The notes beneath the pieces were generated by a model that worked only from the letters and a program-made list of their open reading frames with translations, was not told where the DNA came from and did no database searches. DNA of 33,337 nt from a virus. Shown piece by piece: positions 22,033 to 30,033 of the stretch. Position 1 is the first letter of the stretch. Each line of letters begins with the position of its first letter. The stretch spans positions 1-33,337 of the IMG/VR virus record IMGVR_UViG_3300021185_004134; one strand, 5' to 3'. The position numbers were made by a program, and so were the translations under genes.

Positions 22033-22247
22033 ATAAACCAATTCAAGAAGAGTTCTGGTTTGATATGCCGGAATTTGTGCAAGAAAAGCAGGCCCCGTAC
22101 CTCGAGCTTAAGGTACGGTTTGCAGACCAAGAAGCTCTCGAGGAGTTTTCCAAATTGATCGGCCAAAAGCTCACGGTTAAGACCAAGTCTATCTGGCACC
22201 CAGAGCTTGTTAGAGGGCTTAACGGAGGCAAGAGGTATGTTGAGTAA
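22029..22247 (+). CDS. small MPEFVQ-motif protein, 72 aa, linked to the glycosyltransferase
   Basis: ATG 22029 overlaps the hydrolase stop (ATGA). The product contains FWFDMPEFVQEKQAPYLELK and a LTVKTKSIWHPE ending. This motif pair recurs in phages next to glycosyltransferases or as a C-terminal add-on of other proteins (recollection, not verified). It overlaps the glycosyltransferase by 11 bases, so the two probably act together. Mechanism unknown. Confidence 0.65.
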   Translation: MNKPIQEEFWFDMPEFVQEKQAPYLELKVRFADQEALEEFSKLIGQKLTVKTKSIWHPELVRGLNGGKRYVE

Positions 22248-23136
22248 CCGTTACCCCGTTTACGTCGTCAGCAAGGGCAGGGCGCATTCTAGGCAGACTG
22301 TCAAAGCTCTTGAGCGGATGTCTGTAGAATACAGCGTGGTTGTCGAACAGGCTGAGCTTGAGGAGTACGCTCAGCACATTGATCGGCGCAGGCTGTTGGT
22401 GCTGCCGGAGCGATACAGGGCGGAGTATGAGCTGTGTGACGAGCTTGGCTTTACGAGGTCCACGGGCCCCGGCCCTGCCAGAAACTTTGTATGGGACCAC
22501 GCTACCGCTCTAGGCGTTAAACGCCACTGGGTCATGGATGACAACCTCGACGATTTTCATCGCTTAAATCGCAACATGAAGGTCCCAGTGCGGTCCCCTG
22601 CTACCCTTCGAGCGTCAGAGGATTTTGTCGACAGATTCGCCAACGTGCCAGTGGCCGGTATGAATTACTATTCGTTCTGCAAGAGCACTGACGGCGTGCC
22701 GCCGTTCGTGGCCAACACTCGAATCTATTCCTGCCTGCTGATTGAGAATGCTGCACCGTACAGGTGGCGAGGACGGTACAACGAGGATACCGATCTCAGC
22801 CTGAGAGTTCTCAAGGATGGCCTGTGTACGATCCAGTTCAATGCTTTCCTGTGTGGCAAGACAACCACGCAACGGATGAAGGGAGGCAACACAAAAGAAT
22901 TCTACGCAGGTGAAGGCACCTTGCCTAAATCTCAGATGATCGTGGACCTGCACCCTGACGTATCCAAGGTTGTTTGGCGCTTCAACCGATGGCACCACCA
23001 CGTCGACTACCGGCCATTTAAAAACAATAAGCTTATCTACCGAGACGACTATCAGAAGGTGGACCGAAATAACGAGTACGGCATGCGCCTTGTTGATTAC
23101 GGGATGAAAGCGCCAAAAGACTCCGGACGGCAGTAG
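22237..23136 (+). CDS. TAGT-like glycosyltransferase (candidate DNA base modification), 299 aa
   Basis: ATG 22237 is preceded by GGAGG. The protein matches the TET-associated glycosyltransferase (TAGT) pattern: RYPVYVVSKGRAHSRQT at the N-terminus, GPGPARNF (about 77-84), a WVMDDNLDDF stretch with the acidic sugar-nucleotide/metal site (Asp101, Asp102), and EDTDLSLR (about 183-190). Family members attach sugars to hydroxymethylated cytosines made by phage TET/JBP dioxygenases. No TET-type dioxygenase is seen in this window, so the acceptor base is unknown or the partner lies outside. DNA hypermodification to resist restriction is the most likely role, by inference. Confidence 0.75.
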   Translation: MLSNRYPVYVVSKGRAHSRQTVKALERMSVEYSVVVEQAELEEYAQHIDRRRLLVLPERYRAEYELCDELGFTRSTGPGPARNFVWDHATALGVKRHWVMDDNLDDFHRLNRNMKVPVRSPATLRASEDFVDRFANVPVAGMNYYSFCKSTDGVPPFVANTRIYSCLLIENAAPYRWRGRYNEDTDLSLRVLKDGLCTIQFNAFLCGKTTTQRMKGGNTKEFYAGEGTLPKSQMIVDLHPDVSKVVWRFNRWHHHVDYRPFKNNKLIYRDDYQKVDRNNEYGMRLVDYGMKAPKDSGRQ

Positions 23137-26727: not shown

Positions 26728-26973
26728 ATGACACTCTCAGGCATTACTCCACGGCAGCACACCCTGCGCCGTTGCAACGGTGACCACAAACAAGCCAGTT
26801 ATCCTTTCAAGGCGATGATTATCGGCGATTACTTTGTTGTCCTCTCGAAAGAGGATGCCAAGCGCATTAACGGCGCTTTGTCGACGTTTTATAGGTCTCG
26901 TAATGGCACAGGCAGGCGATTTTCTGTTACGCAGTCAGAAGGCCCTATGTGGACCTGTAGGAGGACAGCATGA
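26728..26973 (+). CDS. DUF7303-like small protein, 81 aa
   Basis: ATG 26728 follows GAGG. Residues ~26-80 contain YPFKAMIIGDYFVVLSKEDA and end in GPMWTCRRTA, the same YPFxxMxxGDxF...W layout as the 70-aa protein at 20064, to which it is probably a distant paralogue. It begins the operon for the small terminase and may be a regulator or accessory factor. The end overlaps the terminase start by ATGA. Confidence 0.7.
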   Translation: MTLSGITPRQHTLRRCNGDHKQASYPFKAMIIGDYFVVLSKEDAKRINGALSTFYRSRNGTGRRFSVTQSEGPMWTCRRTA

Positions 26974-27896
26974 GCAGCGAAGGGAAGAAACGCCGAGACA
27001 TTCTGAACACGTCGCCACTGCGGGGCAGCGCTAAAGAAAGGATTCAAGCACGGCTGAGTGAGCCGGTAGCCCCACTCAAAAATCAGAAGCACATTGTCAG
27101 CGCTCAGCAATGGACCTTCATTCAAGAATTCATATCGAACGACGGGCACATTACTCTGACTGAGGCCGCAATACGCGCCGGTTATCCTAAGGATTCGGCA
27201 AGCTCGATAGCCTCGGAACTTACGGACCCAAAAAAGAAACCGCACGTCGTCGCAGCCATCCAAGAATATCGAGCACAACTCGCTGAGAAATACGGCACGA
27301 ACTTCGACCGGCACATGCGCGACATGCAGATGATTCGTGATAAGGCTCTCGAGGCAGGCAACTTCGGCGCAGCAGTCTCTGCTGAATACCGGCGCGGCCA
27401 AGCTCTCGGCACCATCTACATCGAGCGGAAGGAAATTAGGCACGGCACCATCGACAGCATGTCGAAAGAGGAGGTCACTCGAAAGCTCGAAGAGATCAAG
27501 GCGCTGTACGGTTCACCACCGCAGACCCTGATAGACATCGAGCCTGAGCAGCTCGAAGAGATCGAAGAGATCGAAGAGATTCCCCCCGCCAAAACAATGA
27601 TCGAGGAGATGCGCGATGCCGAGCGGTCCAGAGGCAGCACTGCACAAACGAGTGAAGACAAACCTGCCGGACGCGACGATAGTGCGACTGGAGAACCGGG
27701 TGAACCTCGGGATACCGGACTGCCTGATAGCCCTGCCGCCGACATACTCGATGGTGGAGCTGAAGGTGGTGAAGACCGGCAAGAAAGTGCGCTTGAGTCC
27801 GCACCAGATAGCCTTCGCCCTGAAACACGGGACGATGGGGATGCCGACGTACATTCTAGTCCAGTGGCACCCTCAGGGGACGACCAAGGCCGCTGA
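26970..27896 (+). CDS. terS: terminase small subunit, 308 aa
   Basis: ATG 26970 overlaps the preceding stop; GGAGGAC lies upstream. Residues ~44-95 form the DNA-binding helical domain of phage small terminases (QQWTFIQEFISNDGHITLTE, AAIRAGYPKDSASSIASEL), followed by a helical oligomerisation region to about residue 195 and a KLEEIKALYG helix. The last ~93 residues are Asp/Glu/Ser/Pro-rich and disordered, and overlap the next gene for 281 bases in another frame. The subunit recognises the packaging site and positions TerL. Longer than typical small terminases (about 150-200 aa) because of this tail. Confidence 0.85.
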   Translation: MSSEGKKRRDILNTSPLRGSAKERIQARLSEPVAPLKNQKHIVSAQQWTFIQEFISNDGHITLTEAAIRAGYPKDSASSIASELTDPKKKPHVVAAIQEYRAQLAEKYGTNFDRHMRDMQMIRDKALEAGNFGAAVSAEYRRGQALGTIYIERKEIRHGTIDSMSKEEVTRKLEEIKALYGSPPQTLIDIEPEQLEEIEEIEEIPPAKTMIEEMRDAERSRGSTAQTSEDKPAGRDDSATGEPGEPRDTGLPDSPAADILDGGAEGGEDRQESALESAPDSLRPETRDDGDADVHSSPVAPSGDDQGR

Positions 27897-28041
27897 CACG
27901 CGCCTGCTGCTGTACCACGGCACGCAGGCTCAAGAGCTGCACGAAAAGGGCGTAGAGACGCCTCCAGTAGCCCAGTGGGCCTTGAATGCAGTCAACTGGA
28001 GTGAAATGCGCGCTGAAATAGTAAAAGGACGCCGTATATGA
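27616..28041 (+). CDS. VRR-NUC/PD-(D/E)XK-like endonuclease, 141 aa
   Basis: ATG 27616 follows GAGGAG. Core motifs are GIPDCLIA (Asp35), YSMVELKVVK (Glu48, Lys50) and SPHQIAFAL (Gln64), the arrangement of VRR-NUC / Hjc-like nucleases that cut branched DNA. The C-terminal half is less conserved. It begins inside terS in another frame and lies before terL, so it may resolve replication intermediates before packaging. Real-gene status is well supported because the conserved nuclease motif lies in this frame. Confidence 0.82.
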   Translation: MPSGPEAALHKRVKTNLPDATIVRLENRVNLGIPDCLIALPPTYSMVELKVVKTGKKVRLSPHQIAFALKHGTMGMPTYILVQWHPQGTTKAADTRLLLYHGTQAQELHEKGVETPPVAQWALNAVNWSEMRAEIVKGRRI

Positions 28042-28131
28042 GCCAAACAAGCCCTGTGAGCGCGCCTAGCCTGACCCCTTGCCTACCTACCACTTACAAG
28101 AGAACGTGGCACAGTGGAAACTGGGAAGGGG

Positions 28132-28417
28132 GCCTCGGCCGCCCCCGCGCGGGGTGCGAGCGGCGCGTTTTTGGCTCTGGGCGCCCAGATGCGTGGACCA
28201 AGGCCCGAGGTGCCCGAATCGGGGCAACCACTAGATGTAGTGTTTGGCGGGGGCCGAGGCGCATGGAAATAGCTAAGTGCTTGATTTTAAACGATTCACT
28301 ATTTCCGGTAATAGGTATTACCGGAAATAGCGGGTCCCTTTTGGCCGTTTCTGAGGCCAGATGAGAATCGTTCGCATCTGGCCCGAACGGCCGCCCCCTC
28401 CTCGCGGAGTGCGGGGC
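28132..28417 (+). ncRNA. highly foldable element: candidate structured RNA or packaging site
   Basis: Outer pairing GCCTCGGCC (28132-28140) with GGCCGAGGC (28252-28260) encloses palindromes CCCCGCGCGGGG (28143-28154) and TCTGGGCGCCCAGA (28176-28189), plus CACTA / TAGTG (28229-28242). Next come a perfect 14-bp stem (28299-28330), a nested pair GGCCGTT / AACGGCC (28343-28349, 28386-28392) around GGCCAGATG / CATCTGGCC, and GCCCC / GGGGC (28393-28417) around CTCC-TCGC-GGAG. Such density is unlikely by chance. It could be a noncoding RNA, a pac/cos site, or both. Confidence 0.55.
28299..28330. repeat. perfect 14-bp inverted repeat with 4-base loop
   Basis: CTATTTCCGGTAAT (28299-28312) and ATTACCGGAAATAG (28317-28330) are exact reverse complements around AGGT. 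There is no T-run, so it is not an ordinary terminator; a protein-binding dyad, a terminase site or part of the structured element are alternatives. Confidence 0.92.
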
Positions 28418-28466
28418 TTAAGCTAGATTTCACACAAATAATTTGGCCCAAAACAAAAATGGACTA

Positions 28467-28482
28467 TGTTCCACGTGGAACA
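28467..28482. promoter_or_regulatory. parS-like palindrome
   Basis: TGTTCCACGTGGAACA is a perfect 16-bp palindrome and matches the bacterial chromosomal parS consensus (TGTTnCACGTGnAACA) at every fixed position. ParB proteins bind this site. It lies 19 bp upstream of the terL -35 box. No ParB gene is seen in the window. Confidence 0.85.
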
Positions 28483-28501
28483 CCCTAGCTAACCCACCCC
28501 C

Positions 28502-28530
28502 TTGTTTCTGACAATCAAAAGGGCTATAAA
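28502..28530 (+). promoter_or_regulatory. sigma70-like promoter for terL
   Basis: TTGTTT (28502-28507), 17 bp, TATAAA (28525-28530), followed by an AT-rich start region ending near the ATG at 28552. The leader would be very short (about 15 bases) with no strong ribosome binding site. Confidence 0.7.
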
Positions 28531-28551
28531 TTTTTAGCAAATTTCTACTAA

Positions 28552-30033
28552 ATGGGAATTTTTATGCAACAAGATGTCGATGCCGAACGATTAAAGTTAG
28601 AGCTACGCTTAGCCTTGCTAGAGGGCCAAGAACGGGCACAGGACACCTTTATCGGTTTCTCTCAGTACGTCTGGCCTGAAGCGATACTCAGCAGCCACCA
28701 TAAGATTATGGCTGACGCTTTTGACCGAATAGCCAAGGGAACCCTAAAGCGCTTAATCGTGAACATGCCTCCTCGACACACCAAATCAGAATTTGCGTCG
28801 TATCTGCTGCCTGCTTACATCATGGGCCGTCGTCCAAGCACCAAGATCATTCAGGCGACACACACCGGCGAGCTTGCTGTCAGATTCGGCCGTAAGGTGC
28901 GTAACCTCATGGACCTTGATAAATACAAGGAAGTATTCCCTGACGTAGCCTTGAAGGCTGATAGTAAAGCCGCCGGAAGGTGGGACACGGACAAAGGAGG
29001 GGAGTACTTTGCTGTAGGTGTAGGCGGCGCGATGACGGGCCGTGGTGCGGATATGCTGATTATCGATGACCCGCACTCGGAGCAGGACGCGGCGTCGGTG
29101 TTAGCTCTGGACAACGCTTGGGACTGGTACACGTCTGGGCCTAGAACTAGATTGCAGCCGGGTGGGGCAATTGTTATCGTCATGACTCGGTGGGGAACCA
29201 AGGACCTAACGGCCCGATTACTCAAATCTCAGTCCAACATGAATGCGGACCAATGGGAGGTTATTGAGTTCCCTGCCGTTTTTGATGAAGGCGAAGAGAA
29301 CGAGCGCGCCCTTTGGCCTAGCTTCTGGGAGCTTGACGAACTCAGGGCTGTGCGTGCTTCTATGTCCATTCAGAAATGGAACGCGATGTACCAACAACGG
29401 CCCACGGCTGATGAGGGTGCAATCTTAAAGCGTGAGTGGTGGCGCGTGTGGGATAAGGACTACATGCCGCACATGGAATATCTTATTCAGTCGTATGATA
29501 CCGCGTACTCGAAGAAGGAGACGGCGGATTTCTCTGTCATTACGACGTGGGCGGTGTTCTTCCCCACGGAGGACTCGGGGCCTAATCTGTTGCTTGTTGA
29601 CATGCGTAAAGGCCGGTGGGACTTTCCTGACCTTAAGCGTAAGGCGAAGGAGCAGTATGACTACTGGCAGCCGGATAATGTCTTAATCGAGGCCAAGGCG
29701 ACGGGAATCACGCTTCAGCAGGAACTGCGTAGGATGGGCATTCCGGTTACTATGTATAGCCCCGGCGGGCGACGCGCAGGCCAAGACAAGGTGTCACGAG
29801 CAAACTCTGTCGCACCGATTTTTGAGTCCGGCATGGTCTGGGCACCTGAGACGGATTGGGCAGACGAAGTGATCGAGCAGTGTGCGGCGTTCCCTAACGG
29901 TGACAACGACGACATGGTGGATAGTACGACTCAGGCTTTGATGCGTTTTCGTGCCGGTAATTTCATCTCTCTGCACAGTGATGAGGACGACGATCCCTCG
30001 GAAAATGAAGGGCTTGTCCCTGAGTATTATTAG
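28552..30033 (+). CDS. terL: terminase large subunit, 493 aa
   Basis: Packaging motor with N-terminal ATPase and C-terminal nuclease. Walker A-like PPRHTKS (73-79), Walker B LIIDDP (about 169-174), and a coupling segment with TRWGTKD follow. The nuclease acidic residues are Asp316 in SYDTAYS, Glu380 in LIEAKATG and Asp454/Asp457 in DDMVDS. Length is usual for the family. Start is uncertain: ATG 28552 has no clear ribosome binding site, and ATG 28564 has GGGA upstream. It lies after TerS and the nuclease, separated by a structured gap, and drives DNA into proheads. Confidence 0.95.
   Translation: MGIFMQQDVDAERLKLELRLALLEGQERAQDTFIGFSQYVWPEAILSSHHKIMADAFDRIAKGTLKRLIVNMPPRHTKSEFASYLLPAYIMGRRPSTKIIQATHTGELAVRFGRKVRNLMDLDKYKEVFPDVALKADSKAAGRWDTDKGGEYFAVGVGGAMTGRGADMLIIDDPHSEQDAASVLALDNAWDWYTSGPRTRLQPGGAIVIVMTRWGTKDLTARLLKSQSNMNADQWEVIEFPAVFDEGEENERALWPSFWELDELRAVRASMSIQKWNAMYQQRPTADEGAILKREWWRVWDKDYMPHMEYLIQSYDTAYSKKETADFSVITTWAVFFPTEDSGPNLLLVDMRKGRWDFPDLKRKAKEQYDYWQPDNVLIEAKATGITLQQELRRMGIPVTMYSPGGRRAGQDKVSRANSVAPIFESGMVWAPETDWADEVIEQCAAFPNGDNDDMVDSTTQALMRFRAGNFISLHSDEDDDPSENEGLVPEYY

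Follow-up and report, generated by a model that had tools for sequence, protein, structure and literature searches.

A conserved chromosomal-type parS site near terL in a phage lineage with no detectable partition genes: a probable loading site for host ParB

Among the described systems closest to the locus considered here, the lytic phage phi29 carries four exact host-type parS sites and phage B103 two, and no ParB is found among the annotated phi29 genes; Spo0J (ParB) reportedly helps to trap phi29 DNA in spores, and the lifestyle of this phage is said to be Spo0J-dependent. Phage use of a host-type parS is thus known at least once, and our literature search found no publication describing phages that exploit the ParB of the host by way of a parS. 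Phage-plasmids with ParABS systems, viz., P1 and the extrachromosomal mycobacteriophages, encode their own partition proteins, and KorB of RK2 is encoded by the plasmid itself and acts with its own operator. On the bacterial side, parS2 and parS3 are the two perfect palindromes of the Pseudomonas aeruginosa PAO1 chromosome (PMC4368675).

The lineage described below resembles phi29 in combining exact parS sites with the lack of a phage ParB, but it is unrelated to phi29 and larger, mostly has one site near terL as against four spread over the phi29 genome, and comes without evidence of a sporulating host; it represents an unrelated and apparently wider variant of the phi29 case. With the phage-plasmids (PMC7157519) it shares a centromere-like site on a phage genome, whereas a ParB or ParA of its own is found in neither the window nor its full-length relatives. 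The window, i.e., the entire stretch of 33,337 nucleotides analyzed here, is the whole of an IMG/VR record (IMGVR_UViG_3300021185_004134, 33.3 kb, classed as linear), and, judging from relatives of 60.9–61.8 kb, it is probably about half of a genome of ~61 kb. The features around its terminase genes are:

26970–27896, plus strand: terminase small subunit (phrog_51, E 3.5e-9; PF03592, E 3.3e-6)
27616–28041, plus strand: small gene preceding the module (phrog_2165, labelled DNA helicase; E 4.5e-12)
28042–28551, no strand: conserved noncoding module with parS, upstream of terL (alignment of 25 sequences)
28299–28330, no strand: inverted repeat IR1, CTATTTCCGGTAATA-GG-TATTACCGGAAATAG (arms kept in relatives, centre variable)
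28332–28344, plus strand: conserved block GGGTCCCTTTTGG (alignment of relatives)
28355–28383, no strand: inverted repeat I2 in a variable spacer (palindromic in relatives too, with differing sequence)
28421–28462, plus strand: conserved block AGCTAGATTTCACACAAATAATTTGGCCCAAAACAAAAATGG, immediately 5' of parS (alignment)
28467–28482, no strand: parS-type palindrome TGTTCCACGTGGAACA (consensus match, identity to PAO1 sites, conservation in relatives)
28491–28504, plus strand: conserved block AACCCACCCCCTTG, immediately 3' of parS (alignment)
28552–30033, plus strand: terL, terminase large subunit (phrog_38, E 2.3e-109)

The palindrome TGTTCCACGTGGAACA shows 0 mismatches to the chromosomal parS consensus TGTTNCACGTGNAACA, matching it at every fixed position, and is the sole place in the window with two or fewer mismatches to that consensus; about 1e-4 such sites are expected by chance in 33 kb (33337/4^14, for 14 fixed positions and equal base frequencies). 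It is perfectly symmetrical (inverted repeat I9) and letter-for-letter the same 16 bp as parS2 and parS3, high-affinity sites of PAO1 (PMC4368675 Table 1). These values bear out a prior sequence-only reading of this DNA, which had pointed to the consensus agreement, the perfect palindrome and the very low likelihood of a chance origin. Judged by its letters, the element is a true chromosomal-type parS for which ParB binding is predicted. Its setting differs from that of the P. aeruginosa sites in that it lies on a phage record adjoining terL rather than in the proximity of a chromosomal origin (oriC), with no parAB found on the same replicon.

The module in the clade of the window is compact and consists, in order, of IR1, GGGTCCCTTTTGG, a spacer that is palindromic but variable, a block with AAAACRAAAATGG at its end, parS, AACCCACCCCCTT and an A/T tract, followed by terL. 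IR1, which can also be written TATTTCCGGTAAT-N4-ATTACCGGAAATA, is strongly conserved and occurs once per genome in this clade, as it does in every checked sequence possessing it; parS is likewise found once in the sequence of each checked clade member, and the C-rich block has a weak two-mismatch match elsewhere in one of them. Rfam models matched no family over 27900–28700, and so no known RNA element is recognized there; a GC-skew search for a replication origin was uninformative, and a packaging end at the module was rejected as the ends of the contigs do not pile up at a single position. The spacer (28355–28383) and the flank of IR1 are often palindromic in the manner of GATGAGAATGATTCTCATTT, which has a resemblance, and only that, to a Fur box (the window; L003, L004, L022, L028), and one relative (L019) has a parS-like site in place of one such palindrome beside IR1. 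The window also codes for a TET-associated glycosyltransferase (22207–23136; PF20691, E 3.5e-50), which suggests that the phage DNA is modified; the parS contains a CpG, and its modification could affect ParB binding.

The placement of parS in a conserved module before terL, where, in the clade of the window, a constant gap of a few bases separates it from the AACCCACCCCC block, favors a possible, if doubtful, reading in which host ParB would load at parS and its clamps would spread over the terL control region, damping the packaging and late genes early on until the multiplying phage copies titrate ParB and the block lifts. P. aeruginosa ParB is known to repress promoters beside the intergenic parS3 and parS4 (PMC5521831), and the ParB relative KorB, a clamp that silences distant genes (PMC11790492), offers a model for such a gate. 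However, the transcriptional effects of chromosomal ParB are usually modest, and a sigma-70 scan recognized no promoter-like pair in 28000–28700. The latter result also leaves the -35 element of terL posited in the sequence-only reading without support, and relatives do not conserve the TATAAA expected as the matching -10.

With TerL (28552–30033) as the query, we recovered 80 viral loci with 74–100% identity. Within the 600 bp upstream of terL in 70 sequences (the window and its relatives), the site is present in exact form in 19, with at most one mismatch in 44 and with at most two in 54. Four hundred decoy palindromes obtained by permuting the half-site gave means of 0.07 and 0.27 sequences at one and two mismatches, respectively, and the sole decoy with many matches (24) is a near-copy of parS. 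Given the contrast between 44 of the 70 sequences and a decoy mean of 0.07, the occurrence of parS near terL is no accident. The palindrome is present in relatives, where its absence would have counted against the sequence-only reading. Nevertheless, no site within one mismatch was found in the records of G011 (61.8 kb), G017 and G019 or in the complete genome of DSL-LC04, which indicates that the site is not essential across the whole family.

The 25 distinct variants of the site in the lineage have the core CACGTG or CATGTG, retain both the GTT and AAC arms in 23 cases, and are almost confined in their changes to positions 1, 5, 8, 12 and 16. Set against published consensus sequences as the yardstick, these variable positions appear much as those of chromosomal parS sites. 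One variant from a sibling phage, TGTTCCACGTGGAACC, equals parS1/parS4 of PAO1 (PMC4368675), and another, TGTTCCACGTGGAACG, equals the Myxococcus parS consensus. Thus, the sequence is kept by selection with a parS-like tolerance of change. The same variants bear on the reading of the palindrome as a hairpin, such as a transcription terminator, in place of a protein-binding site: while its perfect symmetry and a minus-strand match that weakly resembles a terminator would fit a hairpin, nine of the 25 variants are unpaired or wobble at positions 5/12 (five T-G and four C-A) and the CATGTG cores break the symmetry, and such variants, keeping parS letters but being unable to pair, count against it. 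Moreover, the number of terminators is not above that in shuffled sequences, and the copies within coding sequences described below would not be terminators, making this reading extremely improbable.

The site does not occupy one homologous place but falls into distinct position classes (A–D), which need 12 label changes on the TerL tree. In clade 1, parS follows AAAACGAAAATGG, whereas in clade 2 it lies in the stretch occupied by GATGCTGCACAAAACAG in siblings without parS. Elsewhere it is found at -49 (L058), in three copies between -447 and -798 (L047, L048, L061), or with the module at -1218 (L018); in L017 the clade-1 (ancestral) copy is lost and two others are present at -440 and -231. 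In three members with no copy in the searched stretch upstream of terL, which were not picked for having a site (L056, L059, L066), a large open frame downstream of terL contains an exact TGTTTCACGTGAAACA, read as VSRET. Among contigs drawn from the 16-mer scan, i.e., chosen for bearing the site, TGTTCCACGTGGAACA is found in coding sequence read as VPRGT in L106, L126, L137 and L148, with L148 having both the VSRET and VPRGT copies; the peptide around the coding parS is common to L126 and L137. The coding copies lie 1.7–4.6 kb downstream of the terL start in some members, and nearly all sites are no more than a few kb away from terL, the exception being that of L187, which is 8 kb off. The combination of shifting positions, replacement copies and copies in coding sequence indicates selection for the DNA site itself, with limited dependence on its exact place. 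Control of late transcription, as entertained in the sequence-only reading, is possible on this evidence but is weakened by the variation of the site relative to the module between clades, by positions as far as 1.2 kb upstream, and by the coding copies downstream of terL.

Searches with the ParB_N (PF02195, even at E<=10), HTH_ParB (PF17762) and TIGR00180 models recovered nothing in the window or in the full-length relatives (~57–62 kb, up to 61.8 kb), and neither a ParA-type AAA_31 (PF13614) nor a phage integrase (PF00589) was found in the window or the relatives, including complete and near-complete genomes; control genomes were positive in these profile searches. As the window covers about half of its own phage genome, the remainder was judged from the full-length relatives. 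The search for parA and parB thus confirms the claim of the sequence-only reading that no ParB is visible, and makes its alternative of a phage ParB encoded elsewhere a disfavored one, since three models at relaxed thresholds were negative even in full-length relatives. A phage ParB-like protein too divergent for these models may nonetheless exist, and we count this against a role for host ParB. The family appears to encode no segregation proteins, and hence probably borrows those of its host. The proposal of a plasmid-like prophage fares poorly: the searches for integrase, ParA and ParB were all negative, and DSL-LC04, a complete relative that lacks the site, is predicted to be virulent by its authors (PMC10611076); the parS-bearing lineage is probably virulent as well. 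A search for the host via TerL in bacterial genomes gave a single match with 64% identity, which we did not use because the 40.8-kb contig bearing it, assigned to a Verrucomicrobia MAG, is possibly misbinned.

Beyond this lineage, a scan of IMG/VR for the 16-mer recovered at least 120 contigs, as against 40 in a complete scan for a control palindrome matched in composition and core. Among the matches listed, 38 of 108 lie outside ORFs of at least 80 aa versus 4 of 38 for the control (p = 0.002), and this excess holds without the lineage of the window (p = 0.004, again among the matches listed). Fourteen contigs among the matches listed encode a TerL 55–64% identical to that of the window; in six of these the site precedes the beginning of the TerL alignment by 139–231 bp, and four of them have it at exactly -164. 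A ParB_N search of 39 other viral contigs with the 16-mer, some of which are chance matches, was likewise negative. A laboratory isolate from among close kin that bears the site was sought without success: phages of Pseudomonas, Xanthomonas, Luteibacter, Aeromonas, Burkholderia and Serratia sharing a replication gene with the window have no site within two mismatches. Two near-parS sites, with one and two mismatches, occur between annotated genes in Vibrio phage JSF39 (L299; 34811–34826 and 40308–40323), which has the conserved replication gene of the window, and Pelagibacter phage HTVC023P (L203) has TGTTACATGTGTAACA, one mismatch from parS, on the minus strand in the gp44/gp45 gap (29137–29152). 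These distributions also touch on the idea that a DNA-binding protein of the phage, coincidentally parS-like in its specificity, uses the palindrome as its operator. The other conserved repeats around it and the regulatory look of the region would suit such an operator, but the enrichment of the 16-mer in many other viral contigs, the tolerated variants being those of chromosomal parS, the exact copies inside genes and a relocation unlike that of a promoter operator render it unlikely.

We propose that the palindrome probably acts in cis as a site for the loading of host ParB, with selection more for its presence than for its exact place, a role that the sequence-only reading had allowed and that is favored by the conservation of the site and the absence of a phage ParB. 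Upon entry of the phage DNA into the cell, host ParB-CTP would load at parS and its clamps would slide outward, so that the phage genome is marked as segregation cargo, and the ParB on the phage DNA would then bring in ParA and SMC. This course of events follows the behavior of ParB-CTP, whose clamps slide away from parS after loading there and which recruits ParA (PMC12704722); ParB also recruits SMC (PMC8494293). The most likely benefit would be that the host machinery positions, compacts or retains the phage genome, for instance such that an infecting genome is not lost while the cell grows slowly or divides. A single site could serve this end: one high-affinity parS is enough for partition in P. 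aeruginosa, and a single parS with parAB stabilizes an unstable plasmid (PMC4368675).

Positioning or retention as the benefit is a plausible but tentative suggestion. We regard it as slightly more likely than the gating of late genes by ParB, with which it has the host-ParB step in common and differs in the benefit, because of the positional freedom of the site, including the coding copies; gating stays alive because the site is near terL in nearly all members, a closeness not required by pure positioning and hence counting against it. A variant of gating, in which ParB at the single parS would restrain the packaging/late operon until replicated genomes titrate it, such that a host segregation protein times assembly as a copy-number sensor and the downstream coding sites act by clamp sliding, strikes us as improbable. 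Replicated phage DNA might alternatively soak up host ParB, thereby disturbing host segregation or freeing SMC; a single site would be multiplied by copy number during infection, but most members have just one site per genome where many copies would be expected of a decoy, and we consider this very unlikely.

If the palindrome is indeed a host-ParB loading site, it would suggest that a widespread, lytic-type aquatic phage family taps the chromosome segregation of its host with just a 16-bp site, and that other parS-bearing viral contigs in IMG/VR may do likewise. The phi29 case would then no longer be confined to sporulating Bacillus, and the placement of phage genomes would become testable in non-model hosts. 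Having been lost and regained repeatedly, also within genes, the site offers a natural experiment on the requirements that a parS has to satisfy.
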